DNA of 64,000 nucleotides from Bifidobacterium adolescentis ATCC 15703. Its GTDB lineage: Bacteria; Actinomycetota; Actinomycetes; Actinomycetales; Bifidobacteriaceae. The position numbers and the translations under genes are program-made. Where the stretch lies: positions 365,946 through 429,945 of the forward strand of contig NC_008618.1 in the NCBI RefSeq assembly GCF_000010425.1, read 5' to 3'. Below the pieces are notes generated by a model that was not told the DNA's origin, searched no databases, and was given only the letters and a program-made list of their open reading frames with translations. This document shows positions 3,423 to 21,264 of the stretch, in pieces; the first letter of the stretch is position 1; every line of letters starts with the position of its first letter.

Positions 3423-3471
3423 TGATGAAAGGCTTGGTATAGCGCGCATTCGCATCGTGCTTGCAAAGAAC

Positions 3472-3534
3472 GGTGAACGGAAGGAACGTCGAACGGCGAA
3501 GGTGTCGTAGACTGTTCATCTTCCGTTCACCGTT
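3472..3534. promoter_or_regulatory. Pho-box-like direct and inverted repeats upstream of pstS
   Basis: GTTCATC (3514-3520) and GTTCACC (3525-3531) form a direct repeat with an 11-bp period, the arrangement known for actinobacterial PhoP boxes. The reverse complement GGTGAAC lies at 3472-3478. Together they make an exact 15-bp inverted repeat (3469-3483 and 3520-3534) with a 36-base spacer, ending in a T-rich stretch. It may act as a pair of opposed RegX3 sites and, in RNA, as a hairpin after regX3. Confidence 0.65.
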
Positions 3535-3657
3535 TTTGGTTTGGGGCGAGTGAAACGCCCAATAGGCTGGAGATTGTCATGAAGAACGATGGCGACAACA
3601 GAAAATCGAAAAATCAGAAACATACGCCATCTGAATGTTGACAGAGGGAAAAGAATA

Positions 3658-4785
3658 ATGCGTAACTCCATTCTCGTACGCTCCATCGCCGCTGTGTCCG
3701 GCATTGTGATGCTGGCTTCCGTCGCGGCTTGCGGTGACAACATCACCGCTTCCACCGATTCTTCGGCCAAGTCCGATACCAAGACCGAAACCGTTTCCGG
3801 CAACTTCTCCGGCGCTGGCGCTTCTTCCCAGCAGGCCGCCGTCGAAGCTTGGATCGCCGGCTTCCAGGGCACCAACCCGGACGCCAAGGTCGCTTACAAC
3901 CCGTCCGGTTCCGGCGCTGGCGTGTCCACCTTCCTGACCGGTGCAACCGCATGGGCCGGCTCCGACGCCTCCCTCGCCGATAACGAGGTCGAGCAGTCCA
4001 AGAGCGTGTGCGCTTCCGGCACCGCCTTCGACATCCCGGTCTACATTTCCCCGATCGCCGTCGTCTTCAACCTGCAGGGCGTGTCCGGCAAGGGCAAGAC
4101 CCTGAACATGGATGCCGAGACCATCGCCAAGATCTTCGACGGCAAGATCACCAAGTGGAACGATGACGCCATCAAGAAGCAGAACCCGAAGGTCGATCTG
4201 CCTGACCTCGACATCACCGTGGTGCACCGTTCCGACAAGTCCGGCACCACCAAGAACTTCCTGAGCTACGTCAAGGACGCCGCTGGCGACGCATGGAGCT
4301 ACGACCTCGGCGAGAACTGGCCGAACGAGGTCGGCCAGGGCGCCAAGGGCACTTCCGGCGTGATCTCCACCGTGCAGCAGGCTGACGGCACCATCGGTTA
4401 CGCCGATGCCTCCCAGGCCGGCGATCTGGGCACCGTGGCCGTGAAGGTCGGCGACGATTACGTCCCGTTCTCCGCTGAAGCCGCCGCCAAGGTCGTGGAC
4501 GCCTCCCCGCTCGACGATTCCGCCAAGGGTGACAACCGCGTGGTCGTCAAGCTCGACCACAACACCACCGAGAAGGGCGCCTACCCGATCGTGCTGGTCT
4601 CCTACGACGTCGCCTGCCCGGCATACAAGGACGCCAACACCGCCAAGTTCGTCAAGTCCTGGCTCACCTACGTGACCAGCGACGAAGGCCAGCAGACCGC
4701 CGCTTCCGCAGCCGGCTCCGCTCCGATGTCCAACACCCTGCGTCAGAAGGTCGTCAAGTCCATCGACGCCATCAAAACCAAGTGA
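3658..4785 (+). CDS. pstS: phosphate ABC transporter substrate-binding lipoprotein
   Basis: PstS captures orthophosphate outside the membrane and delivers it to PstCA. From the ATG at 3658 the protein has 375 residues, with a short signal peptide and a lipobox ending VAAC, the lipidated residue being C25. An in-frame ATG at 3589 would bury the signal peptide 23 residues inside, so 3658 with an upstream AGAGGG SD is preferred. Family signatures include GNFSGAGASSQQAA, NPSGSGAG (phosphate contact), KITKWNDD, VVHRSDKSGTT and ISTVQQADGTIGYAD. It heads the pst operon and lies behind Pho-box repeats. Confidence 0.95.
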   Translation: MRNSILVRSIAAVSGIVMLASVAACGDNITASTDSSAKSDTKTETVSGNFSGAGASSQQAAVEAWIAGFQGTNPDAKVAYNPSGSGAGVSTFLTGATAWAGSDASLADNEVEQSKSVCASGTAFDIPVYISPIAVVFNLQGVSGKGKTLNMDAETIAKIFDGKITKWNDDAIKKQNPKVDLPDLDITVVHRSDKSGTTKNFLSYVKDAAGDAWSYDLGENWPNEVGQGAKGTSGVISTVQQADGTIGYADASQAGDLGTVAVKVGDDYVPFSAEAAAKVVDASPLDDSAKGDNRVVVKLDHNTTEKGAYPIVLVSYDVACPAYKDANTAKFVKSWLTYVTSDEGQQTAASAAGSAPMSNTLRQKVVKSIDAIKTK

Positions 4786-4834
4786 GCCCATCACAGTGGG
4801 GCGATCGCTTTCGGTGATCGGTGACTGACCGTAG

Positions 4835-4878
4835 GTTTCAGGCCGCAGCCGCGTAAAAAAACGGCTGCGGCCTGAAAC
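4835..4878 (+). terminator. pstS-pstC intercistronic hairpin
   Basis: A 17-bp perfect stem (4835-4851 with 4862-4878) closes an A-rich ten-base loop. No uridine run follows. It sits between pstS and pstC and probably acts as a processing or stabilising element, or a partial terminator, that keeps PstS in excess over the membrane subunits. Confidence 0.6.
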
Positions 4879-4947
4879 GATACCTACGGACGATACGCAA
4901 AACCAGAAAAATCGAAAGCAATCGCAAGCAAACCAAAAGGAGAACCC

Positions 4948-5901
4948 GTGAGTTCGCAAAGCAAAACGGCACAGCAGCCGGTGAGCGGCAAGAACGCGGA
5001 TAAGGTGTTCAAGGGCGTGGCCTACGCCTGCGGCATCCTGATCCTCGTCGTGCTCGCCGCGGTCGCGCTGTTCCTGCTGTTCCGCGCGTGGCCGTTGATC
5101 GGCGGTGACCAGAAGGCCAACAGCGCGACCATCAGCAACTTCACCGGCGGCAAGGCTTCCAGCTTCTGGGGCTACGTCGGACCGCTGCTGTTCGGTACCG
5201 TGCTGATTTCCGCCCTGGCACTGCTGATTTCCTTCTTCGTGTCGGTCGGCATCGCACTGTTCATCTCGCATTACGCGCCGAAGAAGCTCGCCACCGCCCT
5301 GAGCTATGTGGTCGATCTGCTCGCCGCCATCCCGTCCGTTATCTACGGTCTGTGGGGCGGTCTGGTGCTGGTGCCCGCCATCTACCCGTTCTGGAATTGG
5401 GTGGCCAAATACCTTGGCTGGATTCCGATTTTCGCCGGTCCCGCCGCCAATCCCTCCCGTACCGTGGCCACCGTGTCCGTGGTGCTGGCCGTCATGATCC
5501 TGCCGATCATCACCTCCATGTCCCGCGACATCTTCCTGCAGACCCCTCGCCTTCAGGAAGAGGCGGCTCTGGCCCTCGGCGCCACGAAGTGGGAAATGGT
5601 CAAGCTCGCGGTCCTGCCGTTCGGCAAGTCCGGCGTCGTGTCCGCCTCCATGCTCGGCCTCGGTCGTGCGCTCGGCGAGACGATGGCCGTGCTCATGATC
5701 CTGTCCCCGGGCCTCAACTACTCCGTCAAGCTGCTGCAGGCCTCGCAGAACCAGACCATCGCCGCGAACATCGCCGCGCAGTATCCGGAAGCCAACGATC
5801 TGGGTGTTTCCGTGCTGATCGGCACCGGCCTGGTCCTGTTCCTGATTACCTTCGTGGTGAACTTCATCGCTCGTAAGCTCACCGAGAAAGCGAGTGCGTG
5901 A
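4948..5901 (+). CDS. pstC: phosphate ABC transporter permease PstC
   Basis: This 317-residue inner-membrane permease forms the phosphate channel with PstA. Hydrophobic segments are visible at about residues 27-50, 75-105, 125-150, 175-195, 230-250 and 280-310. The ABC-permease EAA loop is present as EEAALALGATKWEMV. The start is GTG at 4948, preceded by AAAAGGAG. Its TGA overlaps the pstA ATG by one base (TGATG), showing translational coupling. Confidence 0.94.
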   Translation: MSSQSKTAQQPVSGKNADKVFKGVAYACGILILVVLAAVALFLLFRAWPLIGGDQKANSATISNFTGGKASSFWGYVGPLLFGTVLISALALLISFFVSVGIALFISHYAPKKLATALSYVVDLLAAIPSVIYGLWGGLVLVPAIYPFWNWVAKYLGWIPIFAGPAANPSRTVATVSVVLAVMILPIITSMSRDIFLQTPRLQEEAALALGATKWEMVKLAVLPFGKSGVVSASMLGLGRALGETMAVLMILSPGLNYSVKLLQASQNQTIAANIAAQYPEANDLGVSVLIGTGLVLFLITFVVNFIARKLTEKASA

Positions 5902-6896
5902 TGACCGCCGCAAATAACGACGCTTCGCCGATGGACGGCGCTCCCGTCATCGACTTCGACAAGTTCAAGCCGACCCGTTCCTTCACCTCAGCGCGCAAGC
6001 GCAAGGACTTCGCCATGAAGGCGCTCATCTCGTGCGCGTTCATCGTGGCGTTGATCCCGCTGTTCTCGGTGCTGCTCACCACCATCATCAACGGCGTCAA
6101 GAGGCTGAACCTCAACTTCCTGAGCTACAACATGACCGGCGTGGTCGGCGGCAACTCGACCCCGTCCGGCGGCTACGGCGGCATCCTGCACGCCATCATC
6201 GGCACGCTGGAAATCACCTTCGGCGCCATGCTCATCTCCATCCCGATCGGCCTGATGTGCGCCGTGTACCTGGTGGAATATTCCAACCGTGGCAAGCTGG
6301 CACAGGTCATCACCCTGCTGGTCGACGTGATGAGCGGCATCCCGTCCATCGTCGCAGGCCTGTTCGCCTTCTCGATGTTCACGATTCTGATCGGCCCCGG
6401 CACCATCAACGGTTTCGAAGGCTCCGTCGCACTTTCCCTGCTGATGCTGCCGACCGTGGTCAAGTCGTCCGAGGAAATGCTCAAGATCGTGCCGCACGAT
6501 TTGCGCGAGGCCTCGTACGCCCTGGGCGTCACGAAGCAGCGCACGATCACGAAGATCGTGCTGCGCACCGCCCTGCCGGGCATCGTTTCGGGTGCGATTC
6601 TCGCCGTCGCCCGCGTGATCGGTGAAACCGCTCCGTTGCTGATGACCGCAGGCTACATCGCCTCCACGAACGTCAACCTCTTCTCCGGCCAGATGACCAC
6701 GCTTCCGGTGTACGTCTACCAGGAGTATTCCAAGCTCAACGCGAACTGCCCGGCCAACGCTTCCGCGGCCTGCGTCACCACCATCCCGATGGAACGCGCC
6801 TGGGCCGCAGCCCTTGTGCTGATTCTCATCGTGCTGATCCTCAACCTCATCGGCCGTCTCGTGGCGAAGATCTTCGCCGTCAAGTCGGAACGCTGA
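5901..6896 (+). CDS. pstA: phosphate ABC transporter permease PstA
   Basis: Partner permease of PstC, 331 residues from the ATG at 5901; a GTG at 5898 would add one residue. There is a cytoplasmic N-terminus of about 40 residues, a first helix at about 42-65, and four or five further helices. The EAA loop reads REASYALGVTKQRTI. The fragment DVMSGIPSIVAGLFAF is typical of PstA. The ATG overlaps the pstC stop, and pstB follows after 44 bases. Confidence 0.94.
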   Translation: MTAANNDASPMDGAPVIDFDKFKPTRSFTSARKRKDFAMKALISCAFIVALIPLFSVLLTTIINGVKRLNLNFLSYNMTGVVGGNSTPSGGYGGILHAIIGTLEITFGAMLISIPIGLMCAVYLVEYSNRGKLAQVITLLVDVMSGIPSIVAGLFAFSMFTILIGPGTINGFEGSVALSLLMLPTVVKSSEEMLKIVPHDLREASYALGVTKQRTITKIVLRTALPGIVSGAILAVARVIGETAPLLMTAGYIASTNVNLFSGQMTTLPVYVYQEYSKLNANCPANASAACVTTIPMERAWAAALVLILIVLILNLIGRLVAKIFAVKSER

Positions 6897-6940
6897 GCGC
6901 GGTCGAATAGTCGAAAACATAAGAACAATAAGGAAAACAA

Positions 6941-7720
6941 ATGGGACAACGTATTGATGTCAACCATCTGAACATCTTCTACGGCGACTTCCTGGCCGTG
7001 GAAGACGTGAACATCAACATCGAAGCCAACAAGGTCACCGCGTTCATCGGACCTTCCGGCTGTGGCAAGTCCACCGTGCTGCGCACCCTCGATCGCATGC
7101 ACGAGATCATTCCGGGCGCCCACTGCGAAGGCGAGGTGCTGCTGGAAGGCAAGAACCTGTACGACAAGGATGTGGATCCGGTCGCCGTCCGTCGTGACGT
7201 CGGCATGGTGTTCCAGCGTCCGAACCCGTTCCCGACCATGTCCATTCGCGAGAACGTGCTGGCCGGTGTGAAGCTCAACAACCGCAAGATCTCCAAGTCC
7301 GACGCGGATGATCTGGTCGAGTGGGCCCTGCGTGGCGCCAACCTGTGGAACGAGGTCAAGGATCGTCTGGACAATCCGGGCATCGGCCTGTCCGGCGGCC
7401 AGCAGCAGCGTCTGTGCATCGCACGCGCCGTGGCCGTGCACCCGCAGGTGCTGCTCATGGACGAACCGTGCTCCGCCCTCGACCCGATCTCCACCCTGGC
7501 CGTGGAGGATCTGATCAACGAGCTGAAGAACGAGTACACCATCGTGATCGTGACGCACAACATGCAGCAGGCCGCCCGTATCGCCGACTACACCGCCTTC
7601 TTCAACCTGAAGGCCGTCGGCCAGCCGGGTCACCTCGAGTACTTCACCGACACCACCACGATGTTCAACAACCCGCAGAACGAAGAAGCCGAACGTTACG
7701 TCTCCGGACGTTTTGGCTGA
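6941..7720 (+). CDS. pstB: phosphate ABC transporter ATP-binding protein
   Basis: This 259-residue ATPase drives phosphate import. It has Walker A GPSGCGKS (residues 37-44), the Q-loop in [10 protein letters not shown], the ABC signature LSGGQQQR, Walker [14 protein letters not shown] and the switch histidine in [11 protein letters not shown]. The PstB-specific strand [13 protein letters not shown] is also present. The start follows an AAGGAAAA SD. The last codons lie inside an inverted repeat that continues into the intergenic region. No phoU follows. Confidence 0.95.
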
Positions 7721-7843
7721 TCGATAAGGCCGATTCGCCAAAACGTAGTGCCAACCCGGTGGGTTGGTGCGAGTCAGCTTCAGCTGGCCAGTTAATAGCG
7801 CTTCGCTGTGCGAAACTCTGTAATTGTACGTTTTGGCTGATCG
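7708..7843 (+). repeat. structured intergenic repeat after pstB
   Basis: A 16-bp sequence (7708-7723) that contains the pstB stop codon recurs exactly at 7828-7843, 120 bp further on. The first copy pairs with an inverted copy at about 7731-7746 to form a long hairpin, and the 84 bases between hold further small hairpins, for example 7752-7767. No coding potential is apparent. Confidence 0.6.
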
Positions 7844-7860
7844 GCAGCTCCTTTTCCCCG

Positions 7861-7904
7861 CAAACCGACGTTGAGATTGCTCTCGGCGTCGGTTTGTTGT
7901 TTTT
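7861..7904 (+). terminator. Rho-independent terminator of the pst operon
   Basis: A ten-base stem, CAAACCGACG at 7861-7870 with CGTCGGTTTG at 7887-7896, is followed by a T-rich run. It lies about 140 bp after pstB and before the zinc gene promoter. Confidence 0.8.
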
Positions 7905-7913
7905 CTTGTGGAA

Positions 7914-7922
7914 GCGACACGC
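7914..7922 (+). promoter_or_regulatory. GCGACACGC motif upstream of znuA
   Basis: Exact copy of the recurrent intergenic 9-mer, 37 bp upstream of the -10 hexamer TATGAT at 7951 and on the same strand as the downstream gene. Function unknown. Confidence 0.4.
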
Positions 7923-7926
7923 GCTG

Positions 7927-7956
7927 TTGAGAATCATTCTCAGTTACGGTTATGAT
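7927..7956 (+). promoter_or_regulatory. znuA promoter with Zur-like operator
   Basis: TTGAGA (7927-7932) and TATGAT (7951-7956) are separated by 18 bp. A perfect 7-1-7 palindrome, TGAGAATCATTCTCA (7928-7942), overlaps the -35 box and resembles Fur/Zur-family boxes. Since the gene downstream encodes a zinc-type binding protein, repression by Zur under zinc-replete conditions is the simplest reading. Confidence 0.7.
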
Positions 7957-7999
7957 GGATTCACCGAAGCATGAAGCGTATGAAAATGGAGGAACCATC

Positions 8000-8893
8000 G
8001 TGAACCGTTATGCAAGAATTGCGATTGCCGTACTCGCTTCCGTCGGCCTTCTCACTTCCGCGTCTGCCTGCGGAACGTCGCAGAACGGTGCCGGTTCCGC
8101 GCATGGCGCGATTTCCGTCGTCTCCTCCATCAACCAATGGGGCACCCTCGCCGAGCAGCTCGGCGGAAGCGGCGTGCAGGTGACCAGCATCATCAACTCC
8201 ACCAACGTGGACGCGCACGACTATGAGCCGACCACGTCCGACATCGCCAAACTGCAGAAGGCACGAATCGTCATCGTCAACGGCGCCGGGTACGACTCAT
8301 GGGCCGTCAAAGCCGCGCAATCCGCCAAATCGCAAGTCATCAACGCGGCGGAGATCGGTGGCGTCAAGGATGGCGGCAACCCGCACGTCTGGTTCTCGGC
8401 GGCGGTGCGCAAAGCGGTCGCACAGGCCATCACCAGGGCATACGAGGGCACAAGGCCCGACGGCAAGGCCGATTTCGACAAGCTGAACCAGCAATGGCGT
8501 TCCAAGGAAGACGAGGTCGCCCGAAAAATCACGGAGACCAAACGCAAGGCGGATGGCGAAGCCTATGCCGCCACGGAATCGGTCGCCGAATATTTGGCCG
8601 GGGACCTGGGCCTCAAAGACGCGACGCCGACCGGCTACATGCGTGCCACGGCCAACGAAAGCGAGCCAACGCCGACCGACATCAAACAGTTCACCGACAT
8701 GCTGGAGGCCGGCAAGGTCGGCCTGCTGGTGGTCAACATTCAGGAGGAGACCGAGTTGACCGGCAAGATCGTCACCGCCGCCAAATCGTCCAATATTCCG
8801 ATCGTGGAGCTGACCGAGCAGATGCCGGAGCAGTACGATTCCCTGACGGACTGGATGGCCGCGCTCGTCGACGCGTTCTCCCAAGCCATCTAA
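8000..8893 (+). CDS. znuA: zinc/manganese-type ABC transporter substrate-binding lipoprotein (ZnuA/AdcA family)
   Basis: This 297-residue cluster 9 metal-binding lipoprotein is likely to bind Zn2+ outside the cell. The GTG at 8000 has a GGAGGAA SD; the signal peptide ends with SASAC and C24 is lipidated. Metal-ligand motifs are visible: H in NVDAHDYEPT and H in GNPHVWFSA, with later acidic residues in TELTGK and VELTEQ regions. An in-frame ATG at 7952 would place the lipobox too far in and lies on the -10 box. No permease or ATPase gene is adjacent, so it is an orphan that must work with a transporter encoded elsewhere. The Zur-like operator supports zinc over manganese. Confidence 0.85.
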   Translation: MNRYARIAIAVLASVGLLTSASACGTSQNGAGSAHGAISVVSSINQWGTLAEQLGGSGVQVTSIINSTNVDAHDYEPTTSDIAKLQKARIVIVNGAGYDSWAVKAAQSAKSQVINAAEIGGVKDGGNPHVWFSAAVRKAVAQAITRAYEGTRPDGKADFDKLNQQWRSKEDEVARKITETKRKADGEAYAATESVAEYLAGDLGLKDATPTGYMRATANESEPTPTDIKQFTDMLEAGKVGLLVVNIQEETELTGKIVTAAKSSNIPIVELTEQMPEQYDSLTDWMAALVDAFSQAI

Positions 8894-8925
8894 TGCGGAT
8901 CTGCGTCAAACCGATACGAAAGTCG

Positions 8926-8960
8926 ATAAAAAAAGGGCGATTCCACTGAAGGAACCGCCC
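8926..8960 (-). terminator. terminator of the purine permease gene
   Basis: On the minus strand a ten-base stem (8951-8960 with 8935-8944) around a six-base loop is followed by a run of seven T. It lies 22 bases past the stop of the minus-strand permease and may also slow transcription from znuA. Confidence 0.85.
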
Positions 8961-8982
8961 ATTTTCCGTATGAAAAGGACTG

Positions 8983-10371
8983 TTACAGCACTGCGGTGAT
9001 GATGAAGTCCAGAATGAACAGCACGGCCACGACCCAGATCACCGGATGCACGTCCTTGGCCTGCTTCTTGCAGGTCTTGACGATGCAGTAGGTGATGAAG
9101 CCGCCGGCGATGCCGTAGGAGATGGAGTAGCTGAACGCCATGAACACGGACGCGAAGAACGCCGGAATGGCTTCGGAGATGTCGCCCCACTCGATTTCCT
9201 TCAAGGAGGAAGCCATCATGCAGCCGACCACGACCAGCACGCCTGCGGTCGCGGCGGACGGCACGGCGGAGATGACCGGGGAGAGGAAGGCGGACAGCGC
9301 GAAGCAGATCGCCACGACCACGGAGGTCAGGCCGGTGCGGCCGCCGGCGGCGATACCCGCGGAGGACTCCACGTAGGTGGTGGTGTTCGAGGTGCCGCAG
9401 ATGGCTCCGATGGAGGTGGCGATGGAGTCGGCGAACAGGGCCTTGTCCATCTTGGAGGAGAAGCCGGAACCGTTCTCAAGAGCCTTCTCGTCCTCGGCGG
9501 AGAAGATGCCGGTACGACGGCCGGTGCCGATGAAGGTGCCGATGGTGTCGAAGGTGTCGGACATGGAGAACGCGAAGATGGTCAGCAGGATGATCGGCAG
9601 CTTCGACACGTCGGAGAACAGCGCCGGGAAGCCATCCTTGGTGAAGATCACGCCGAAGGTCTGCGGCAGCTGGGCGAAGGTGTCGGCGATGGACACGGAG
9701 TTGGCCATGGTGGTCTGGCCCATCGGAATGCCGACGACCGCGGTGACGGCGATGGCGATCAGCATGCCGCCGCGTACCTTGAGCACGGTGAGCACGATGG
9801 CCAGCACCAGGCCGATGATGAACAGCCAGATGGTCGGATTGTTCATGACGGCAAGGCCCGGGGTGGCCTGCACGGTGTCGCCGCTCTTGGCCGCGGACTT
9901 GGTGGTGAAGGTGAAGAAACCGACGTTGAGGAAGCCGACGTAGGCCACGAACAGGCCGATGCCGCCGCCGATGGCGTTCTGCAGCACTTCCGGAATGGCC
10001 TGGATGATCATCTTACGAATCTTGGTGACGGTGATGATGATGTTGATCAAACCGCACAGGAACACCATGCACAGGGTTTCCTGCCACTTGAAGCCGAGGC
10101 CGAAGCACACGGTGTAGGTGAAGAACGCGTTGAGGCCCATGCCGGCGGCCTGCGCATACGGAACGTTGGCGAACAGGCCCATCACGAGCGTGCCGATGAT
10201 GGCCGCGATGATGGTGGCGAGGAACACGCCGCCCCACGGCATACCGGTCGAAGACAGGATCTGCGGGTTGACGATGATGATGTAGGACATGGCGAAGAAC
10301 GTGGTCAGGCCGGCCATGATCTCCGTGGAGACGGTGGTGCCGTTCTCCTTGAGATGGAAGAATTTCTCCAT
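8983..10371 (-). CDS. NCS2 family purine permease (AzgA/PbuG-like)
   Basis: This membrane transporter of about 462 residues belongs to the AzgA/PbuG branch of nucleobase permeases, which import adenine, guanine and hypoxanthine with protons. The N-terminus MEKFFHLKENGTTVSTEI followed by AGLTTFFAMSYIIIVNP is diagnostic, as are AAGMGLNAFFTY and GTSNTTTYVESSAGIAAGGR in the middle. Many hydrophobic segments fit the 14-helix fold. The ATG at 10371 is used; an upstream in-frame ATG at 10386 would add five residues. It is transcribed towards znuA and shares a terminator region. I saw no purine riboswitch core in its leader. Confidence 0.88.
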   Translation of the reverse strand: MEKFFHLKENGTTVSTEIMAGLTTFFAMSYIIIVNPQILSSTGMPWGGVFLATIIAAIIGTLVMGLFANVPYAQAAGMGLNAFFTYTVCFGLGFKWQETLCMVFLCGLINIIITVTKIRKMIIQAIPEVLQNAIGGGIGLFVAYVGFLNVGFFTFTTKSAAKSGDTVQATPGLAVMNNPTIWLFIIGLVLAIVLTVLKVRGGMLIAIAVTAVVGIPMGQTTMANSVSIADTFAQLPQTFGVIFTKDGFPALFSDVSKLPIILLTIFAFSMSDTFDTIGTFIGTGRRTGIFSAEDEKALENGSGFSSKMDKALFADSIATSIGAICGTSNTTTYVESSAGIAAGGRTGLTSVVVAICFALSAFLSPVISAVPSAATAGVLVVVGCMMASSLKEIEWGDISEAIPAFFASVFMAFSYSISYGIAGGFITYCIVKTCKKQAKDVHPVIWVVAVLFILDFIITAVL

Positions 10372-10540
10372 TTTCTCTTTTCTCATCTTTCTTGGGTTGG
10401 TAGGCGCGTGCCATATGGTGGCGTGCGCCGGCGAGAATCGCGACTCGCCTGGGACATGCGTCCCTGAACAAAGCAAACGTAGCACCTATGTAAGTCATGG
10501 AAATTTCGTGCGATTGGTAAGGGGTTGCTTTTGCGGCGGC

Positions 10541-10550
10541 GCGACACGCC
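10541..10550 (+). promoter_or_regulatory. GCGACACGCC motif upstream of rplJ
   Basis: Exact copy of the recurrent 9-mer plus one further base, same strand as rplJ, 36 bp upstream of the -10-like TAAATT at 10577. It lies in the 421-bp space between the permease and rplJ, whose other visible content is the L10 leader. Confidence 0.4.
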
Positions 10551-10599
10551 GGTCTGGATTAGTCCAAACGGGTCAGTAAATTACCCACTTGTAAACCAC

Positions 10600-10790
10600 A
10601 GACCGTTGGTTGGAGCGTGCAAGCGCTCACGAAGTTTGGTTCGCCAAGCCAGCGCAGGTTGAAGAACATACGCCCACCAAGGGCTTTCCGCTTAGCGGTC
10701 GAATGTTGCTCTGCCTGCGTGCAGGGCTTTTTTTATTGCCCTGCGAGGTGTTCCGAATCTCACAGTCAACGGTTGACTAAGGAAGGAACG
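10600..10790 (+). ncRNA. ribosomal protein L10 leader with attenuator
   Basis: The roughly 190-base leader of rplJ is rich in inverted repeats. GCCTGC (10713-10718) pairs with GCAGGGC (10721-10727) followed by seven T, an intrinsic terminator. The same GCAGGGC can pair instead with GCCCTGC at 10738-10744, which would disrupt the terminator. This fits L10-L12 autoregulation by premature termination, known for L10 leaders in Gram-positive bacteria. Boundaries are approximate. Confidence 0.65.
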
Positions 10791-10792
10791 CC

Positions 10793-11314
10793 ATGAAGAG
10801 GCCCGAAAAGGAAGCGGTGGTCGCTCAGCTTACGGACAAGTTCCGTAACGCCGACGCTATCTACCTGACCGAGTACCGCGGGCTTACCGTTCCGCAGATC
10901 TCTGAACTGCGCGAAAAGCTAGGCCGCGATACTTCCTACACTGTGGCAAAGAACACGCTCGTTCGCATTGCAGCCAAGGAAGCTGGCATCGAAGGTCTTG
11001 ATGAACTTCTCGCCGGCCCGACCGCTGTGACCTTCGTGAAGGGTGACTTCATCGAAGCTGCGAAGACCCTGCGTGACTTCGCCAAGACCAACAAGGCACT
11101 GATCATCAAGGGCGGCTTCGCTGATGGCACCGTCTACGATGCTGAAGGCGCCAAGAAGCTGGCAGACCTCAAGTCTCGCCCGCAGCTGCTCGCCGAGTTC
11201 GCCGGCGACATCAAGGCTACGATGTCCAAGGCCGCGTACCTGTTCAACGCTCTGCCGACCAAGGCCGTGCGTACGATCGATGCGCTGCGCGAGAAGCAGG
11301 AAAAGGCTGCCTGA
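10793..11314 (+). CDS. rplJ: 50S ribosomal protein L10
   Basis: L10 (173 residues) anchors the L7/L12 dimers to the ribosomal stalk. The N-terminus MKRPEKEAVVAQLTDKF, followed by YLTEYRGLTVPQISELR, is typical, and the C-terminal helix that binds L12 is present. The start follows AAGGAAGG. It is co-transcribed with rplL, 113 bases downstream, and controlled by the attenuator in its leader. Confidence 0.97.
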   Translation: MKRPEKEAVVAQLTDKFRNADAIYLTEYRGLTVPQISELREKLGRDTSYTVAKNTLVRIAAKEAGIEGLDELLAGPTAVTFVKGDFIEAAKTLRDFAKTNKALIIKGGFADGTVYDAEGAKKLADLKSRPQLLAEFAGDIKATMSKAAYLFNALPTKAVRTIDALREKQEKAA

Positions 11315-11427
11315 TTTCGCTGCGGCTCGCCGCATGAATGAAGCAACCACAAAAAAGAAAAACAATTGTTTTAGGTGACGGCCACCTCTTCAATTCAGTC
11401 CGTCGCCAAGAATGAAAGGAAGCCATT

Positions 11428-11808
11428 ATGGCTAAGTACACCAACGATGAGCTGCTCGAAGCTTTCGGTGAGATGACTCTGGTTGAGCTCTCCGAGTTCG
11501 TCAAGGCCTTCGAAGAGAAGTTCGACGTCGAGGCTGCTGCCCCGGTCGCCGCTGTTGCCGCCGCTCCGGCTGCTGGCGCTGCTGCTGAGGAAGAGAAGGA
11601 CGAGTTCGACGTCATCCTCTCCGCCGTTGGCGACAAGAAGATCCAGGTCATCAAGGCCGTCCGCGCTATCACCAACCTGGGCCTGGCTGAGGCCAAGGCT
11701 CTCGTCGACGGCGCTCCGAAGGCTGTCCTGGAGAAGGCCAAGAAGGAAGACGCCGAGAAGGCCAAGTCCCAGCTCGAAGAAGCCGGCGCCACCGTCGAGC
11801 TCAAGTGA
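11428..11808 (+). CDS. rplL: 50S ribosomal protein L7/L12
   Basis: This 126-residue acidic stalk protein recruits translation factors. It has an N-terminal dimerisation domain, an alanine-rich hinge (about residues 35-55) and a C-terminal domain with [17 protein letters not shown] and [13 protein letters not shown]. The strong GAAAGGAAG SD and biased codon use indicate high expression. A terminator follows. Confidence 0.98.
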
Positions 11809-11847
11809 TTCGCGCGGCTTCAAGCCGCAATCACCAAGCTGTAATGG

Positions 11848-11880
11848 AAACCCCGTTTGCCGTAAGGCAGCGGGGTTTTC
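11848..11880 (+). terminator. terminator of rplJL
   Basis: AAACCCCG pairs with CGGGGTTT, extended by TGCC/GGCA around a GTAA loop, and ends in a T run. Confidence 0.9.
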
Positions 11881-12022
11881 CGCATATGGAGCATGACTCA
11901 GGCATGTTCTAAAATGGGGGAATTAGGCGAAAGTTGTCAATTTATCGGTTCGGAATCCTTACTTTCGCGATGAATCATGACACAATGGCAGATAGTGTAG
12001 TGCGAAAGGAAGGCCGACAACG

Positions 12023-13528
12023 GTGAGCGAGGATCGACGAATGACGCGGCAGTGGACCGTCAAAGTTGACGGAAACAACGTGAAAACGCTTCATGACGGC
12101 GAAAGCGTGGAAATCGGGCGCAAACCGTTGCGCCCGCTGTCGGATGACGGGTTCGCTCGTCTCGACATCATGGATCCGGGCAAGTCCATGTCGAAAAGAC
12201 ATGCGGTCCTCTCCGTCGACAAGCAGGGCAATTGCTCCGTACGAGATCTGCATTCCACCAACGGCTCGTTCGTGGTGACGAACAACGGCCAACTGATGCG
12301 CCTGCCCGCAGGCGAGGACATCAAGCTGCCCATCGACTCGATGACCCTGCAGTTCGGCGACGTGCGTCTTACGCTCGAATCCGCATTCGAACACGATGAC
12401 GAGGATGACGACGCCACCTCCGGTGTCTCGGATGATACAAGCCAGCCGGTTTCGAACCTGTTCGAATACGCGGTCTCCGACGAGGCTCCGCAGGAACCGG
12501 ATGCAGCCGACATGTCCGTGGACGACATCCTCAATCTGCGTGCCGGCGAGCCGACGACGTTCTTCCACGCGCGCAATGTCACCGACCGTGCCGATGCTCT
12601 GCACCAGGCGGAACGTCAGACCTTCACGCCGGAGCATGCCGACAAGCCGGAACTCGAAGATGCATTCCCCTCGGTCTCCTTGGTTCAGGAAACCGTCGTG
12701 GCCGCGGACAAGCCCCGCGACCTGTTCGCCGACGCCGCAGCGCAGGCCGAGGCTGAAGCTGAGATCGAGGCCGATGCGGCCGATTCCGCTGATGCGGCTG
12801 CGACCGATGCCGAGGTGGCTGCCGTCTCAACCGAGACAGCCGCTCAGCCCTTGGAAGCATCCCATGACGGTAACAAGAACAACCTGATTCCGGTGGACAA
12901 GCTGTTCAGCGCGCGCCCCAGCACGCCAATCGCCGTCGCTCTGCCCGACAGGAACGACACTGGCGATAACACAGGCAACGTTGACAAGGCTGACAATGCG
13001 GCTGACGCGTCCGCCCAGGAACAGACGCAGTCCGCCGAACAATCGCAGATGGCGGAACAGCCCACATCGGAAACGGCCGAACAGCAGCCCGCCGAACAGC
13101 AGTCGAAGCCGATGCACGCTACGCAGCCGCAGACGGAACAGCCGGGAACGGTGACCGCGGAAGACGACGACGAGCGGTTCCGCCCGCAAAACAGCCAATC
13201 GCAGCCCGCGCCGGACGAAACCGCCGCATTCAAGCCGATCTTCGAACCGGGATCGGTATTCGACCGTGTGTCCAAAGGCGGCCTCGCCAAGCAGGAGCAG
13301 ACCATCGAGGTCGACGGCCTGACCTCCGATGACGCCAAACGCACGGATGATTTCACAGTGCAGTTCCAGATGGCGCGTCATCCGGAACTGTTGCCGTTCC
13401 TCGCCATGAACCCATCCCTATACGATGACCTGTACGCGTGGTTGGGCGCATTGGGCAACCAAGACATCGATGCGGCTTTGGCACACAATCCGGGATATGA
13501 GGAATACCGCAAGGCAGTAGGGAAGTGA
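12023..13528 (+). CDS. FHA domain protein
   Basis: This 501-residue protein opens with a forkhead-associated domain (about residues 8-125) that binds phosphothreonine peptides; the conserved MSKRHAVL and DLHSTNGSFV motifs are present. Residues about 130-420 are acidic and Q/A/E-rich, with little predicted order. The last 55 residues form a compact region (HPELLPFLAMNPSLYDDL, then WLGALGNQDIDAAL) like the LRV-type repeat found in bifidobacterial proteins. The GTG at 12023 has AAGGAAGG ten bases upstream; ATG 12041 is an alternative. The stop overlaps the next start by four bases, tying it to the helicase-like protein. It may be a Ser/Thr-kinase-controlled adaptor for that protein; this is inference. 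Confidence 0.85.
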   Translation: MSEDRRMTRQWTVKVDGNNVKTLHDGESVEIGRKPLRPLSDDGFARLDIMDPGKSMSKRHAVLSVDKQGNCSVRDLHSTNGSFVVTNNGQLMRLPAGEDIKLPIDSMTLQFGDVRLTLESAFEHDDEDDDATSGVSDDTSQPVSNLFEYAVSDEAPQEPDAADMSVDDILNLRAGEPTTFFHARNVTDRADALHQAERQTFTPEHADKPELEDAFPSVSLVQETVVAADKPRDLFADAAAQAEAEAEIEADAADSADAAATDAEVAAVSTETAAQPLEASHDGNKNNLIPVDKLFSARPSTPIAVALPDRNDTGDNTGNVDKADNAADASAQEQTQSAEQSQMAEQPTSETAEQQPAEQQSKPMHATQPQTEQPGTVTAEDDDERFRPQNSQSQPAPDETAAFKPIFEPGSVFDRVSKGGLAKQEQTIEVDGLTSDDAKRTDDFTVQFQMARHPELLPFLAMNPSLYDDLYAWLGALGNQDIDAALAHNPGYEEYRKAVGK

Positions 13529-16500
13529 GTCGGTATATGAGCGAAAACGAAGAGACGGCCACCGCGTTGGACCGTATCCGCGGATGGCGTGAGGAGTATC
13601 GCCTTGGTCTGGCACCATCCCCGCTTGAGGATGTGACGCAACTGAGCGCCCAGCTTGACCTGACGCATGCGCACCCATCGGGCATCGCGCAGCTGTTCGC
13701 CAAAGGACACGTCACCTTGGACTCGTTGTTCCGAGACAACGGCATGCTGCGCGCCGCGGGCAGGCGTGTGGAACGCGTGCTCGACGACCGTGACGCGAAA
13801 AGCCGTGTCAGCGGCGTCGGCGAACTCTCCTTGGTGGTCGGCGTGGCCATTTGGAAAGGCAACCAGATGCCGGTGCTCATGTATCCGGTCGAAGTGCGCA
13901 AGGAAGGCCGCAACATCGAGAACGGCACCGTCATCGCGTTCACCGGACGAGTGCGTCTGAACGCGGCCTTCGCCGCCGTGATGCGTGAAAACAACGTGAC
14001 ATTGGACGAGACCAAGCTCTTCGATGGTTCGAATTACGAAAGCGGCACCCCCGAAACGTCCGCGGTGTTCGCGGCCATCACAGCGCGCGCGTCCAGCGTT
14101 TTCCCCGATTTCGAAATCGAACGTCACATCATCCTCGGCTGCTTCATGGACCCGTCCTCGCAGATGCTGGTGGAAAGTCGCCAGATCATCAACCAGCTGT
14201 CCCAAGGCCCGACAGGCAACACCGTTCTGGACGCGCTCGCCGGGAACAAGGAAGCCGCGGACGCGCTGAAAGACGCGCAGATTCCCGAATACAGTCCGTT
14301 CGACGCCGATCCCCATGGCGAATACGAGATTGGCGACGTTGACAACACCGTCCGATACGCGGCGCAGCTGGCCGCATCCGGGCATTCGATTTTCGTGGAC
14401 AGCGCGATCAGCGGCAACACGGCCGAACAGGCCGCGGCAATCGCCTCCCGTTGCGTGATGGGCGGACACAGCGTGCTGTACGTGCCGTGCGTCACCGACC
14501 AAAAGCGCCGTTTCATGCAGACGATCGCGGCCAACGAGATGAGCGGCCAATTGCTGGACATCGCCGATGACGGCGCCAATGCGGCAATCGACCGTCAGCT
14601 GATAGCCGCAGTCGGTTTCCAATCCGGCGTCGCGACTTCGCGTTTCGACCAGATCTCCGACGAACTGGTGGGCGTACGCTCCCGCCTGGCCCGCTATCTG
14701 GGCGACCTGCATGGCGTCAGCCAGGAATGGGGCGTGTCCGCATACCAGACCATCCAGAACCTCGCACAAATCGCCGTCCTGCCCACGCATCCGACCACGC
14801 ATGTGCGTCTGACCAAGCAGTCCGCCCATTCCATCGCGGACAAGATGGAGGAATGGGCCCAGAAGCTGTATCGCGCGGGAGAACTCGGCGAATACACCAT
14901 CGGCGCGCAGGACACCGCCTGGTACAAAGCCTCCCTGTATTCCGAAGAGGAAGCGATCAGCGCATACCAGCGTGTGGTCGAGCTGCTGCGCAAGGTGCTG
15001 CCCGCCACCCGCAAACAGGTGTCCAGCACCGTGCAGACCTGCGGCTTCCCGATTCCCACCACCGCGCAGGAGTGGGGACGCCAGGTCATGGTGCTCAAGA
15101 ACCTGCGCCGCGTGCTCGACGTCTTCCAGCCGGAAATCTTCGAACGCGACATCGATTCCATGATCGAGGCCACCAAGCCCAAGGCCCAGCGCAAGGCCGA
15201 AGGCAGCTCCATGGGATTCTGGGAACGTCGCCGCCATATCAAGGAGGCCAAGTCGATGCTGCGCGTCGGCGCGCAGGTGGAGAACCTGCATGAGGCGCTG
15301 CTCGTGGTGGCCAAGCAGGCCGAACAGTGGCACATGTTCGTTCCTCACGGCGGATGGCCGGTGCTGCCCGCCAAACTCGACGACATCATCAACACGCAGG
15401 ACCAGCTGACGAACGATATGACCGCGTTGAACGTGGCGCTCGCCACCACACCGCAGGGCGGCAATCTGGACACCGTCGACCTCAACCAGGTGGAAGAGCG
15501 TCTGAAGGCCCTGTATGACGACAAGCAGGCGTTGGATACGCTGCCGGAACGCGCCCGTCTGGAACGTGAGTTCCATTCGGCCGGTCTGGATGAGCTTGTG
15601 GCGGACCTGAGCAACCGCGGCGTGCCGAACGACGCCGTGGCCGGAGAACTGCAGCTGGCGTGGTGGACCACGGCTTTCGAAGACATCGTGAAGTCCTCCG
15701 CCATCATTTCCAACCAGGATGGCTCCGCCATGCAAAGCGCCGCCGACCGATTCACCCAGGTGGATGTCGAACACGTGCGTTCCATCGGACCGATGGTCGC
15801 CCAAGAGTCCGTACGCCGTCTGTGCGACATGCTTTTCTCCCGCACGCAGGAAGCCAATCTGCTGCATACCACGCTTGCCGGTTCCCGAAACGTGCCGTTG
15901 AACAGGCTGCGCAGGGAGCATCCGCAGATTTTGGCCGCGGCAAAGCCTATTCTGGTGGCAACGCCAGCCACGCTCGCTGCCATCACCGACCCGGCGCCGC
16001 TTGCCGATACCGTCATCATCGATACGGCCGCGCATATTCCGTCCATCGAGCTGCTCAGCATCATCGCCCGCGCGAAGCAGGTCGTGGTGATCGCGCACCG
16101 CAAGACCGTCACATCCGATGGCCTGCAGCGACTGATCGCACTGCTGCCAAGCGTGAAGATAACCGACAGGCCGGTTCGCCGTGCGCCGAAGCTCAACGCC
16201 TTCCTCGAATCGGAAGGATACGGCTCCGTGCCGTGCGATGTGGCGCGTGAAGGATACCAAGGCGAAGTCGCGTACCATTTCGTGCCGGACGCCAACGGTG
16301 TGCCGGTCATCAATTCCGGCCTGGTCGAATCAAGCCAGCAGGAGATCGACGAAGTGGTGAGCATCATCCGCAAGCGCGCGGCCGGTTTCACCATCGTTCC
16401 CGCATCGTATGTGCTTACCGTGGTAGCGCTCACGCACACGTTCCGCATCCGTCTGGGTGCCGAGCTCAAGTCGCTTGCCAACAAAGACAAGGCCATGGGC

Positions 16501-17157
16501 ATGTTCCTGCGCCACGTGCGCATCGTGGACATCGTCGATGTGGCCGGCGCCCACGCCACCGACGCGATTCTTGCGATGTGCTACGCCAAGACCTCGCACG
16601 GCAGGCTGCTGCAGCAGTTCGGCGCGCTGGAATCCGACGGCGGCCGAGGCATGCTGCTGGACGCTTTGGCGGTACCGGACCGTCATCTCGACATCGTCTC
16701 GTCCTTCGCATCCGACGATATGGACGACGAGCGACTGCATCAGGATGGTCCGAAGGCGCTCAAAACCGTGCTGCGTTGGGCCGAACAGCTTGATGACAGC
16801 ATGGTCCGCCCGGCGATCAAGGAGTCCGGAGAGAACGTGCTCTTCAACGATCTCGCCGAGAGGATCCGCGAACGCGGCTTGGACGTGGCCGTCGATTACG
16901 GTTTCGATGACGGACTCAAACTGCCGTTGGTGGTTGGTCTGAAAGGCGAGCCGTTCGCTTTGGCCGTGCTCACCGATGACGCGCAGTTCATGGGACTGCA
17001 ATCCACCAGGGAACGCCATCGCGTGCTGCTGCAGGACATCGAATCGCTTGGCTGGTCGGTGATGACGGTATGGAGCGTCGGCGCGTTCGTGAACCCCGAT
17101 AAGGAAGTCGACCGCATCGTGGCACGACTGGGAAGCCTGTACCGGGAGGAACGGTGA
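13525..17157 (+). CDS. degenerate DNA2/UPF1-like SF1 helicase with C-terminal endonuclease-like domain
   Basis: This 1210-residue protein keeps the architecture of large actinobacterial SF1 helicases: an N-terminal DUF4011-like region (GVGELSLVVGVAIW and PVLMYPVEVR, about 95-125), a split ATPase core, and a C-terminal Vsr/MTES_1575-like domain (about 1110-1205). The Walker A strand GHSIFVDSAISGNTAEQAAA occupies the place of a GPPGTGKT loop but lacks the lysine. The Walker B strand ADTVIIDTAAHIPS has DTAA for DEAS, and the endonuclease strand lacks an obvious acidic pair. The helicase is thus probably inactive as an ATPase. The GTG at 13525 overlaps the FHA gene (GTGA); ATG 13537 is an alternative. 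Its GTGA overlap with the next gene makes a three-gene unit. Confidence 0.75.
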   Translation: MSRYMSENEETATALDRIRGWREEYRLGLAPSPLEDVTQLSAQLDLTHAHPSGIAQLFAKGHVTLDSLFRDNGMLRAAGRRVERVLDDRDAKSRVSGVGELSLVVGVAIWKGNQMPVLMYPVEVRKEGRNIENGTVIAFTGRVRLNAAFAAVMRENNVTLDETKLFDGSNYESGTPETSAVFAAITARASSVFPDFEIERHIILGCFMDPSSQMLVESRQIINQLSQGPTGNTVLDALAGNKEAADALKDAQIPEYSPFDADPHGEYEIGDVDNTVRYAAQLAASGHSIFVDSAISGNTAEQAAAIASRCVMGGHSVLYVPCVTDQKRRFMQTIAANEMSGQLLDIADDGANAAIDRQLIAAVGFQSGVATSRFDQISDELVGVRSRLARYLGDLHGVSQEWGVSAYQTIQNLAQIAVLPTHPTTHVRLTKQSAHSIADKMEEWAQKLYRAGELGEYTIGAQDTAWYKASLYSEEEAISAYQRVVELLRKVLPATRKQVSSTVQTCGFPIPTTAQEWGRQVMVLKNLRRVLDVFQPEIFERDIDSMIEATKPKAQRKAEGSSMGFWERRRHIKEAKSMLRVGAQVENLHEALLVVAKQAEQWHMFVPHGGWPVLPAKLDDIINTQDQLTNDMTALNVALATTPQGGNLDTVDLNQVEERLKALYDDKQALDTLPERARLEREFHSAGLDELVADLSNRGVPNDAVAGELQLAWWTTAFEDIVKSSAIISNQDGSAMQSAADRFTQVDVEHVRSIGPMVAQESVRRLCDMLFSRTQEANLLHTTLAGSRNVPLNRLRREHPQILAAAKPILVATPATLAAITDPAPLADTVIIDTAAHIPSIELLSIIARAKQVVVIAHRKTVTSDGLQRLIALLPSVKITDRPVRRAPKLNAFLESEGYGSVPCDVAREGYQGEVAYHFVPDANGVPVINSGLVESSQQEIDEVVSIIRKRAAGFTIVPASYVLTVVALTHTFRIRLGAELKSLANKDKAMGMFLRHVRIVDIVDVAGAHATDAILAMCYAKTSHGRLLQQFGALESDGGRGMLLDALAVPDRHLDIVSSFASDDMDDERLHQDGPKALKTVLRWAEQLDDSMVRPAIKESGENVLFNDLAERIRERGLDVAVDYGFDDGLKLPLVVGLKGEPFALAVLTDDAQFMGLQSTRERHRVLLQDIESLGWSVMTVWSVGAFVNPDKEVDRIVARLGSLYREER

Positions 17158-17426
17158 GCGCCGAGCATATCGAAAACGTCATGGAGCATGACGATTCGCA
17201 GACCCAGTCCGAGACGCACTCCACACCCAGTTATTCCGCCACGCGGCGGACCGCACGCAAGCATAAGCGCGTGGTCCGCCAAGGTACGGAACTGTTCGAT
17301 GCCGATGGCGTCAAACTCGAACCTTCGGACGTGCTCACCAAGCGCCAACGCGAGGCGGATGACGACAAGCGCATCCTAAACGAGCTTCCGCCACATTGGG
17401 CGGTCTTCTCCGAACGCGGCCGCTGA
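17154..17426 (+). CDS. small conserved protein, third gene of the FHA-helicase operon
   Basis: This 90-residue hydrophilic protein starts at a GTG that overlaps the helicase-like stop by four bases. The N-terminus is polar and S/T-rich; a basic patch TARKHKRVVRQGTELF leads to a C-terminal part, LEPSDVLTKRQREADDDKRI and NELPPHWAVF, which looks conserved in style. I do not recognise the family. The tight overlaps suggest it works with the two upstream proteins. Confidence 0.65.
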   Translation: MSAEHIENVMEHDDSQTQSETHSTPSYSATRRTARKHKRVVRQGTELFDADGVKLEPSDVLTKRQREADDDKRILNELPPHWAVFSERGR

Positions 17427-20067: not shown

Positions 20068-21264
20068 ATGGGTTATGAATCGTTAAGCACGGTGGTCGTG
20101 CTTGCGATCGTTGTCATCCTGATGCTCATTTGGTTGCCCAGACGGACGATTAAAGGCATGAAGAGGGTGATCGAACATCGCGAGGACCGCTTTTCACCGT
20201 CGTTGCATCTGGTGGATGCCGACAGCGGAACGCGATTTTCCGATGAGACCGTCGCGGCAGCGAAAGGGGTACTGATGCAGTCCACAGAGGCGCACAAAGG
20301 CGCAACATCCGAAGAACGGATCGCGGAAATTCGCGCCCTTCGTCACGCCGCGGTCCGCAGGAGGCGCGCCATCGCCGTCTCATTGCTGACAATCACGGTC
20401 GTTGTGCTGGTCTGTGCGTTCGCACTGCACTTCAGCCCGCTGTTCGCGCTCATTCCGGCCGCGTTGCTGGCCGCGGTGCTCGCGTTGGGTGTGCGTGCGT
20501 CCAAGCAGGCCGTGGCGTGGGAGCGGAAGGTCGCCAGATACCATGCCAAGGTGAAGAAGCGTGTCGCCGCCGAACGCAAACGTGCGCAGGCGGAGCAGGC
20601 GGAACGTGCCAGACTGCGCGCGCAGGAGCTGGCCGAAGCCCGCAAGGTCGTCGACGAGCAGTTGAAGACCGATGTCGTTCCCGAGGGGGAGATTCGCCAG
20701 GCGATCGCCCGCGGCAAGGCCGATCGGGACGCCGCGGTGAAACGGCGCAAGGAAGAGATGTCTTCCAAGGAAGAGACGCAGACTGCCGAGAAGGCCGTCG
20801 ACCAGACAACCGAACGTGCGGATGCCGCGCCCGCTGACGTCAAGGAAGTGGGACTGTCCATCCACGATGAGCGAGACAATATGGCCGAAGAAGCCAAAAC
20901 CGTTGCCGTCAAGTCCACGCAGGACTTGATTTCCTTCTCGTTGGGTGCGCCTCGCGACGGTGCCGACGTTGAGGTGGATGCTCCGGAAAGCATGGAGATC
21001 AAGTCCACCAAACAAGTGGCCAAGGCCGTGCCCGTCGAAACGCCTTCCGACGAGGCTGAGCCGTTGATTCCGCCAAACGACGCAATGGGCAGCATGGATG
21101 CCGATGAGGCCGCCGCCCGCGTGGATGAGGGCGTGCACCTCAGAGAGGTCGACGTTCCGGGATTCCACGATGCCGAAGTACGTGCCGATGTGGAGGCTCC
21201 GGATGTGACTTCGGACTCCCTAGGCACCGGCCTGGAGGCCATTCTGGCCCGTCGTAGCGCCTGA
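20068..21264 (+). CDS. membrane protein with long acidic cytoplasmic tail
   Basis: This 398-residue protein has a membrane helix at residues 7-24, a loop of about 85 residues, two closely spaced hydrophobic stretches (about 106-145), then a charged coiled-coil segment (about 150-235, rich in K/E/A) and an acidic low-complexity tail. The order cyclo-ligase, RimJ acetyltransferase, this protein matches an actinobacterial locus that includes a membrane receptor for a gephyrin-like division protein (GlpR/SepX type). That relationship is inferred from synteny and topology only. A terminator follows. Confidence 0.65.
   Translation: MGYESLSTVVVLAIVVILMLIWLPRRTIKGMKRVIEHREDRFSPSLHLVDADSGTRFSDETVAAAKGVLMQSTEAHKGATSEERIAEIRALRHAAVRRRRAIAVSLLTITVVVLVCAFALHFSPLFALIPAALLAAVLALGVRASKQAVAWERKVARYHAKVKKRVAAERKRAQAEQAERARLRAQELAEARKVVDEQLKTDVVPEGEIRQAIARGKADRDAAVKRRKEEMSSKEETQTAEKAVDQTTERADAAPADVKEVGLSIHDERDNMAEEAKTVAVKSTQDLISFSLGAPRDGADVEVDAPESMEIKSTKQVAKAVPVETPSDEAEPLIPPNDAMGSMDADEAAARVDEGVHLREVDVPGFHDAEVRADVEAPDVTSDSLGTGLEAILARRSA

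Follow-up and report, generated by a model that had tools for sequence, protein, structure and literature searches.

We analysed a 64,000-nucleotide stretch of the Bifidobacterium adolescentis ATCC 15703 genome (contig NC_008618.1, positions 365,946 to 429,945; hereafter the window, in whose numbering all positions are given). Within it lies a three-gene operon, whose central gene encodes a 1210-residue protein with the predicted fold of a superfamily 1 (SF1) helicase joined to a nuclease domain and with the catalytic residues of both apparently gone. The three genes are:

12023..13528, + strand: FHA-LRV_2 protein gene, 501 amino acids
13525..17157, + strand: pseudo-helicase/pseudo-nuclease gene, 1210 amino acids
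17154..17426, + strand: small protein gene, 90 amino acids, with a basic stretch and a C-terminal ILNELPPHW

An earlier note, made from these letters alone, had given the same coordinates, lengths and frames, and had placed a GTGA at each junction (13525–13528 and 17154–17157); all of this held on re-examination. The sequence GGGAGG precedes the small-protein start at the second junction. At the first junction, the large gene also has a plausible ATG start four codons in (13537), so that the GTGA overlap may not mark the true one.

To characterise the large protein, residues 12–1210 were modelled in AlphaFold2 together with 35 relatives, giving a predicted local distance difference test score (pLDDT) of 87 and a predicted template modelling score (pTM) of 0.72. 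The predicted model contained a UPF1-like arrangement of two RecA-like domains. Its best matches among solved structures were UPF1, Sen1, IGHMBP2, DNA2 and Aquarius (Z about 14.6–17, ~400–550 of 1199 residues aligned), including UPF1 2xzo_A (Z 17.0, root-mean-square deviation (rmsd) 5.0, 440 aligned) and DNA2 5ean_A (Z 15.9, rmsd 4.4, 416 aligned). The C-terminal domain, modelled alone (pLDDT 77.7), matched NGO0050 (3hrl, Z 10.5), a T. gondii mitoribosome chain (Z 10.4), I-Bth0305I (Z 10.2) and Vsr (1cw0_A, Z 9.6, rmsd 2.4, 98 aligned). A plain Foldseek search with this domain was weak (best E 0.25), as was the similarity of Upx (9wuf) to it (Z 5.8). The UPF1/DNA2-like and Vsr-like folds suggested earlier were thus borne out by fold comparison of predicted models. 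At the sequence level, the sole Pfam match of the protein was MTES_1575, just below the gathering score (37.4 vs 38.2 bits), and a search of PDB sequences with either the protein or its profile returned no helicase; only fold comparison gave one.

The positions of the former catalytic motifs within the large gene are:

14401..14427, + strand: former Walker A loop, residues 293–301 (SAISGNTAE)
16000..16023, + strand: former Walker B, residues 826–833 (LADTVIID), Asp kept and the next Glu lost
16648..16674, + strand: former motif VI, residues 1042–1050
16849..17130, + strand: Vsr-like nuclease-fold domain, residues 1109–1202, catalytic Asp replaced by Pro

We surveyed these motifs in 108 distinct Bifidobacteriaceae proteins aligned with three intact controls (L118, L109 and L070), which were read correctly. 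The Walker A Lys (replaced by T/S/A/G), the Walker B Glu (A/S/T), the motif III Gln (T/F) and the motif VI Arg (L/V/I/T/M) were absent from all 108, and the nuclease Asp was Pro in every one; the nuclease Glu was lost in 104 and kept in four. In the window protein, the Walker A Lys column holds Thr, or Asn by a one-residue gap choice. The absence of the Walker A Lys and Walker B Glu, first remarked on for this single protein, therefore extends throughout the family sample, and an intact P-loop elsewhere in the protein was not apparent: the pattern G....GK[ST] occurred in only one of the 108 (L241, GMSSDGKS), where it is unlike a P-loop and was taken as chance. Losses of the motif III Gln, the motif VI Arg and the nuclease residues had not been described in the earlier note. 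Given that helicase and nuclease residues are both missing, we expect both activities, not ATPase alone, to be gone, and on sequence grounds the two appear dead. The former Walker B, motif VI and nuclease segments nevertheless rank between the 84th and 94th percentiles of conservation, compared to the 45th for motif III and the 5th for the Walker A loop. Conserved as they are with new residues, these segments look re-used as structure, not decaying. The same conservation at the former nuclease positions, together with the Walker B Asp retained in 108/108 proteins, is what could be expected if the protein were still an enzyme, working via non-canonical residues or a partner's active site. We consider this quite improbable, as four other key residues (Walker A Lys, motif III Gln, motif VI Arg and nuclease Asp) are missing from every family member and the Walker A loop drifts.

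We further investigated the occurrence of this gene across the order, Actinomycetales in GTDB; families other than Bifidobacteriaceae are denoted here by f-numbers. At a threshold of E 0.001, the family profile matched 246/248 order genomes (21 of them Bifidobacteriaceae) and all 85 genera, although some weak matches may be paralogues. In a class sample searched at E 1e-30, 29/158 genomes matched: the B. adolescentis genome itself, 13 more belonging to the order and 15 from beyond it. Relatives from 20 families were aligned, and 112 entered a tree. The P-loop Lys was present in seven of these and replaced in 105, by any of thirteen residues (T, A, S, V, G, R, Q, L, N, I, P, D and H); outside Bifidobacteriaceae it was lost in 63/69. 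The keepers were L109 (f4), four of the seven f16 proteins (L118, L119, L132 and L137), L148 (f40) and L070, an extra bifidobacterial copy. In many families a recognisable GTGxT or GSGxT remains with only the Lys changed, alongside changes in Walker B: to Ala in f2, f6, f13, f17 and most of f7, to Gly in f18, to Gln in most of f5, to Arg in f35, and to Leu, Ala or His in f14. Nearly all motifs were lost in f1, f3, f8, f9, f12 and f19. Loops reading PGTGxT with Ala or Gly for Lys were observed in different families (L143, L111, L112, L135, L136, L138, L140–L142, L172, L173, L175 and L176). Extra related open frames of ~1606–1609 amino acids were also observed in two bifidobacterial genomes, L070 (G035:C9:82500-91500, frame 2309-7135) and G076:C10:102750-104399; L070 has all tested helicase and nuclease motifs.

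The genomic surroundings were conserved between families. Here, the names rplJ, rplL, rimJ and cyclo-ligase were read from sequence, while the names mscL and SAF were verified against Pfam in relatives. Of 20 loci in other families, 17 had at least one of the mscL, SAF, fmdB and cyclo-ligase genes nearby; none was found close by in the remaining three (L115, L120 and L124). Among 15 typical Bifidobacteriaceae loci, rplJ or rplL was found on one side in 14 and fmdB on the other in all 15; none of the tested neighbour genes was found at L064–L066. Sharing the same neighbours across families, this looks like a vertically inherited locus and not a defence island. Three orthologues at the shared locus (L109, L118 and L119) keep every motif tested, and for one of them, L118, the alignment to the family profile spans 1173 columns at 28% identity. 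Most families form clades in the tree, the exceptions being f3, f7, f12 and f16. Assuming that a lost Lys is never restored, the tree requires two or more losses, and catalysis would then have disappeared at least twice, but several deep nodes of this tree are weak.

The large protein does have homologues among phage-defence proteins, with matches to ProA (NCBIfam NF058533, E 3.7e-49), Hhe (NF042953, E 1.2e-20) and PADLOC PDC-S37 (E 4.3e-52). It could in principle derive from the ProA/Hhe group and act as a sensor that recognises phage DNA but leaves it uncut, passing the signal on through the FHA protein and kinases. However, its scores fall far under the curated cut-offs (167.2 vs 1500 bits for ProA, 72.6 vs 2000 for Hhe), intact ProA-like proteins such as L070 occur separately, and defence genes are patchy whereas this gene occupies one locus in every genome of the genus (below). 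A role as a defence sensor is therefore improbable.

The gene was also retained within Bifidobacteriaceae. The pseudo-helicase was matched in 112/112 genomes of the genus with no stop within any matched piece; in G096 the match was split across two contigs, and several genomes carried insertions within one open frame. The ratio of non-synonymous to synonymous substitution rates (dN/dS) was 0.035–0.13 in all six pairs compared. Across a family sample, 53/61 genomes matched. This included genus g13, whose genomes are only 0.8–0.9 Mb, where five of seven (four of these 99–100% complete) had a near full-length match at 36% identity. One f12 gene (G380:C2:1185105-1188801; L165, L190) is split over two frames, a possible frameshift or error. 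The view of the earlier note that the large gene is intact, not decaying, accords with these data. A decaying relic of a helicase-nuclease gene would account for the degenerate motifs and for the possible broken copies in G077 and G380, but its presence in all 112 genomes, its retention in reduced ones and, above all, a dN/dS that already contradicts decay leave this reading with almost no probability. Taken together, the alignments and predicted models show the large gene to be the bifidobacterial form of a vertically inherited order gene for an SF1, UPF1-like helicase with a Vsr-like nuclease domain, whose sites have been lost while the predicted fold has been kept under purifying selection.

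The first gene of the operon encodes a protein with three recognisable elements:

12110..12304, + strand: FHA domain, residues 30–94, 36.9 bits vs a Pfam cut-off of 20.7
12515..12556, + strand: conserved motif 3' of the FHA domain, residues 165–178, with invariant V166, I169, R173, E176, P177 and T178
13361..13489, + strand: LRV_2 domain (PF25591), residues 447–489, 46.2 bits vs a Pfam cut-off of 27

Both the FHA domain and the acidic low-complexity middle of this protein (63 D+E against 15 K+R in residues 121–400) had been recognised earlier, and both stood. Residues G32, R33, S57, H60, N80 and G81 of the FHA domain were invariant in 19/19 aligned proteins; these are residues of the presumed phosphothreonine-binding site. 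A PDB sequence search with the FHA protein gave no match at E 0.01. Potential upstream partners exist, as the own genome has five Pkinase domain matches. A second FHA gene in this genome (L004, C1:1660386-1663622) is convergent with a gene bearing two LRV_2 matches, in surroundings that read, by eye, like PP2C and rpoC gene ends. Adjoining FHA and LRV_2 matches of this kind recur in other family genomes. With two such neighbourhoods in the own genome, FHA and LRV_2 have been paired twice; a third LRV_2 place there had no FHA match.

The small protein had been described as basic. This did not hold for the protein as a whole (15 K+R vs 17 D+E, isoelectric point 6.2), which is basic only around residues 30–43. 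Its gene also adjoins the helicase outside Bifidobacteriaceae, in six of 11 f8 proteins and one of two f12 loci. At L125 (f12; helicase frame 5397-10295), its C-terminal motif was weakly matched (E 7e-4) just where the helicase frame ends, which may reflect a fusion. An apparent fusion of the helicase and small protein in Bifidobacterium reuteri (L211, frame 7893-11798, 1301 amino acids) was not used as evidence of binding, since it depends on a shift close to the end of the helicase that may stem from a sequencing error.

Conservation of the whole operon was strong. At 136 Bifidobacteriaceae loci, representing the 108 distinct proteins, all three gene profiles matched without exception, and an automatic gene-order test was passed by 126; at the other 10, the mechanical frame bearing the match starts far upstream or runs on. 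The three-gene order expected in related genomes is therefore present. The adjacency of FHA and helicase genes was likewise retained in the reduced genomes L063 and L069. Outside Bifidobacteriaceae the picture differed. In 20 other-family loci (L108–L127, ~5 kb flanks), the profile of the bifidobacterial FHA protein had no match next to the helicase, although FHA genes are present elsewhere in the genomes of those families. With no FHA match beside the helicase there, the FHA partner looks like a later, bifidobacterial addition. The earlier interpretation is thus partly supported: a tie between the pseudo-helicase and phospho-signalling may hold for bifidobacteria, where the FHA gene adjoins it, but not for its origin, the gene being order-wide and no FHA match having been found beside it in those 20 loci. 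The observation is right and larger than was described, phospho-signalling apparently having been added to an older, order-wide pseudo-enzyme. That the FHA gene merely adjoins the pseudo-helicase, with no joint function, would fit both its absence in other families and the ambiguous start, hence overlap, of the large gene. Against a mere neighbour are the 136/136 loci and the adjacency kept in L063 and L069, and we regard such independence as possible but rather unlikely.

The reading we favour, to which we give about even chances, is that this core pseudo-helicase/pseudo-nuclease is a nucleic-acid-binding scaffold, coupled in bifidobacteria to Ser/Thr kinases via the FHA protein. The pseudo-enzyme would bind nucleic acid, whether DNA or RNA, through its helicase and nuclease-fold domains without turnover, and may hold partner proteins there. 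The small downstream protein probably binds the pseudo-helicase, which it adjoins in at least three families. The FHA-LRV_2 protein, whose gene separates rplL from that of the pseudo-helicase in Bifidobacteriaceae, probably connects the scaffold with proteins that Ser/Thr kinases have phosphorylated on Thr.

Several observations weigh against this scaffold. The pseudo-helicase is acidic overall (net -34), and in G077 (C2:316964-322213) the match to its last ~55 residues is confined to displaced pieces, as might be seen in a broken copy. BLAST did not detect the small protein in either reduced genome (L063 and L069), nor was it detected beside the helicase in five of the 11 f8 proteins and in most other families. 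Three dead relatives at 22–24% identity (L064, L065 and L066; genera g9 and g4) have neither the FHA nor the small gene alongside. The FHA linkage itself rests on gene order and conservation. We rejected co-loss of the FHA and helicase genes as proof of linkage. None of the eight family genomes without a helicase match has an FHA-protein match above 50 bits, but rplJ is likewise missing from four of them (G115, G118, G140 and G162), probably through a gap in the assembly. The remaining four (G124, G130, G141 and G152) have rplJ but are only 57–85% complete, and co-absence is therefore a poor test.

A special case of the scaffold is one in which RNA is the ligand of the pseudo-enzyme, possibly at the ribosome, and the FHA protein regulates this binding. 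This is consistent with the RNA-linked UPF1, Sen1 and Aquarius among the best structural matches, with the nuclease-domain match to the T. gondii mitoribosome chain (Z 10.4), with the rplJ or rplL upstream in 14/15 Bifidobacteriaceae loci, and with FASTK proteins, for which PMC12687428 describes a homologous C-terminal fold with RNA-binding activity. On the other hand, DNA2 and IGHMBP2 match equally well, rplJ-rplL was undetected beside the gene in the 20 other-family loci, and a stable hairpin separates rplL from the operon:

11846..11881, + strand: hairpin followed by Ts, 3' of rplL, -26.5 kcal/mol, z -4.7 vs shuffles

This hairpin is likely a terminator between rplJ-rplL and the three-gene operon, although a consensus scan did not list it. 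We see an RNA or ribosomal role as an unlikely but real possibility. Doubtful, too, when taken as a whole, is the most extensive proposal, in which the order's core helicase-nuclease lost its activities on two or more occasions, retained its fold as a structural scaffold for nucleic acid and, in bifidobacteria, became connected to Ser/Thr kinase signalling by an FHA adaptor. It would then be a core machine not described before, possibly one that acts on RNA or ribosomes.

The operon is preceded by rplJ-rplL and the hairpin, and faces a SAF-domain gene on the other strand. A promoter scan was uninformative (two sites vs 1.4 expected). Further along the window, a 398-amino-acid protein (20068-21264) with a hydrophobic N-terminal stretch is encoded 3' of a rimJ-like gene; it may resemble actinobacterial GlpR.

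Literature searches, which did not extend to subscription papers, returned nothing recognised as this gene. The main text of a B. breve transposon study (PMC5514069) makes no mention of FHA, forkhead or helicase, and PMC10250203 reports that P. aeruginosa has a DUF4011 gene that is large and conserved. Few bacterial pseudo-helicases have been described, Deinococcus PriA being the one that these searches returned. Here, a helicase-nuclease shape of ~1200 residues has been kept, its chemistry lost, in nearly every sampled genome of the order, gut bifidobacteria included. In other families, some orthologues at this locus retain all tested motifs. This amounts to a natural experiment, as setting active against disarmed forms could reveal the family's role besides catalysis. 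In addition, the pseudo-helicase operon offers a hypothesis that can be tested about what Ser/Thr kinases and FHA proteins regulate in bifidobacteria.

In comparison to known systems, the helicase part shares its predicted fold with UPF1, Sen1, IGHMBP2, DNA2 and Aquarius (Z about 14.6–17) but, unlike UPF1-type SF1 helicases, the protein lacks the motif I Lys, motif II Glu, motif III Gln and motif VI Arg. Its last ~110 residues resemble Vsr (1cw0), NGO0050 (3hrl) and MTES_1575 in fold (Z 9.6–10.5) and differ from Vsr-like nucleases in the Pro that replaces the catalytic Asp in 108/108 family proteins and in a Glu kept in only four. Homology to ProA, Hhe and PDC-S37 covers parts of the helicase and the C-terminal domain; unlike ProA and Hhe, the window protein has lost its catalytic residues, occupies a fixed chromosomal locus and scores 167/1500 and 73/2000 bits, respectively. 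Mitochondrial FASTK proteins also have a C-terminal fold related to PD-(D/E)XK nucleases and, according to PMC12687428, an RNA-binding role with uncertain catalysis; they are eukaryotic, and the likeness is a fold-level analogy only. Deinococcus radiodurans PriA is likewise a bacterial helicase with degenerate motifs and, according to PMC4504706, has lost ATPase activity and unwinding while keeping DNA and DnaB binding. PriA acts in replication restart, whereas the window protein is UPF1-like, has lost nuclease as well as helicase residues and is known here from its sequence. By analogy, Deinococcus PriA would be the nearest precedent for binding without catalysis.

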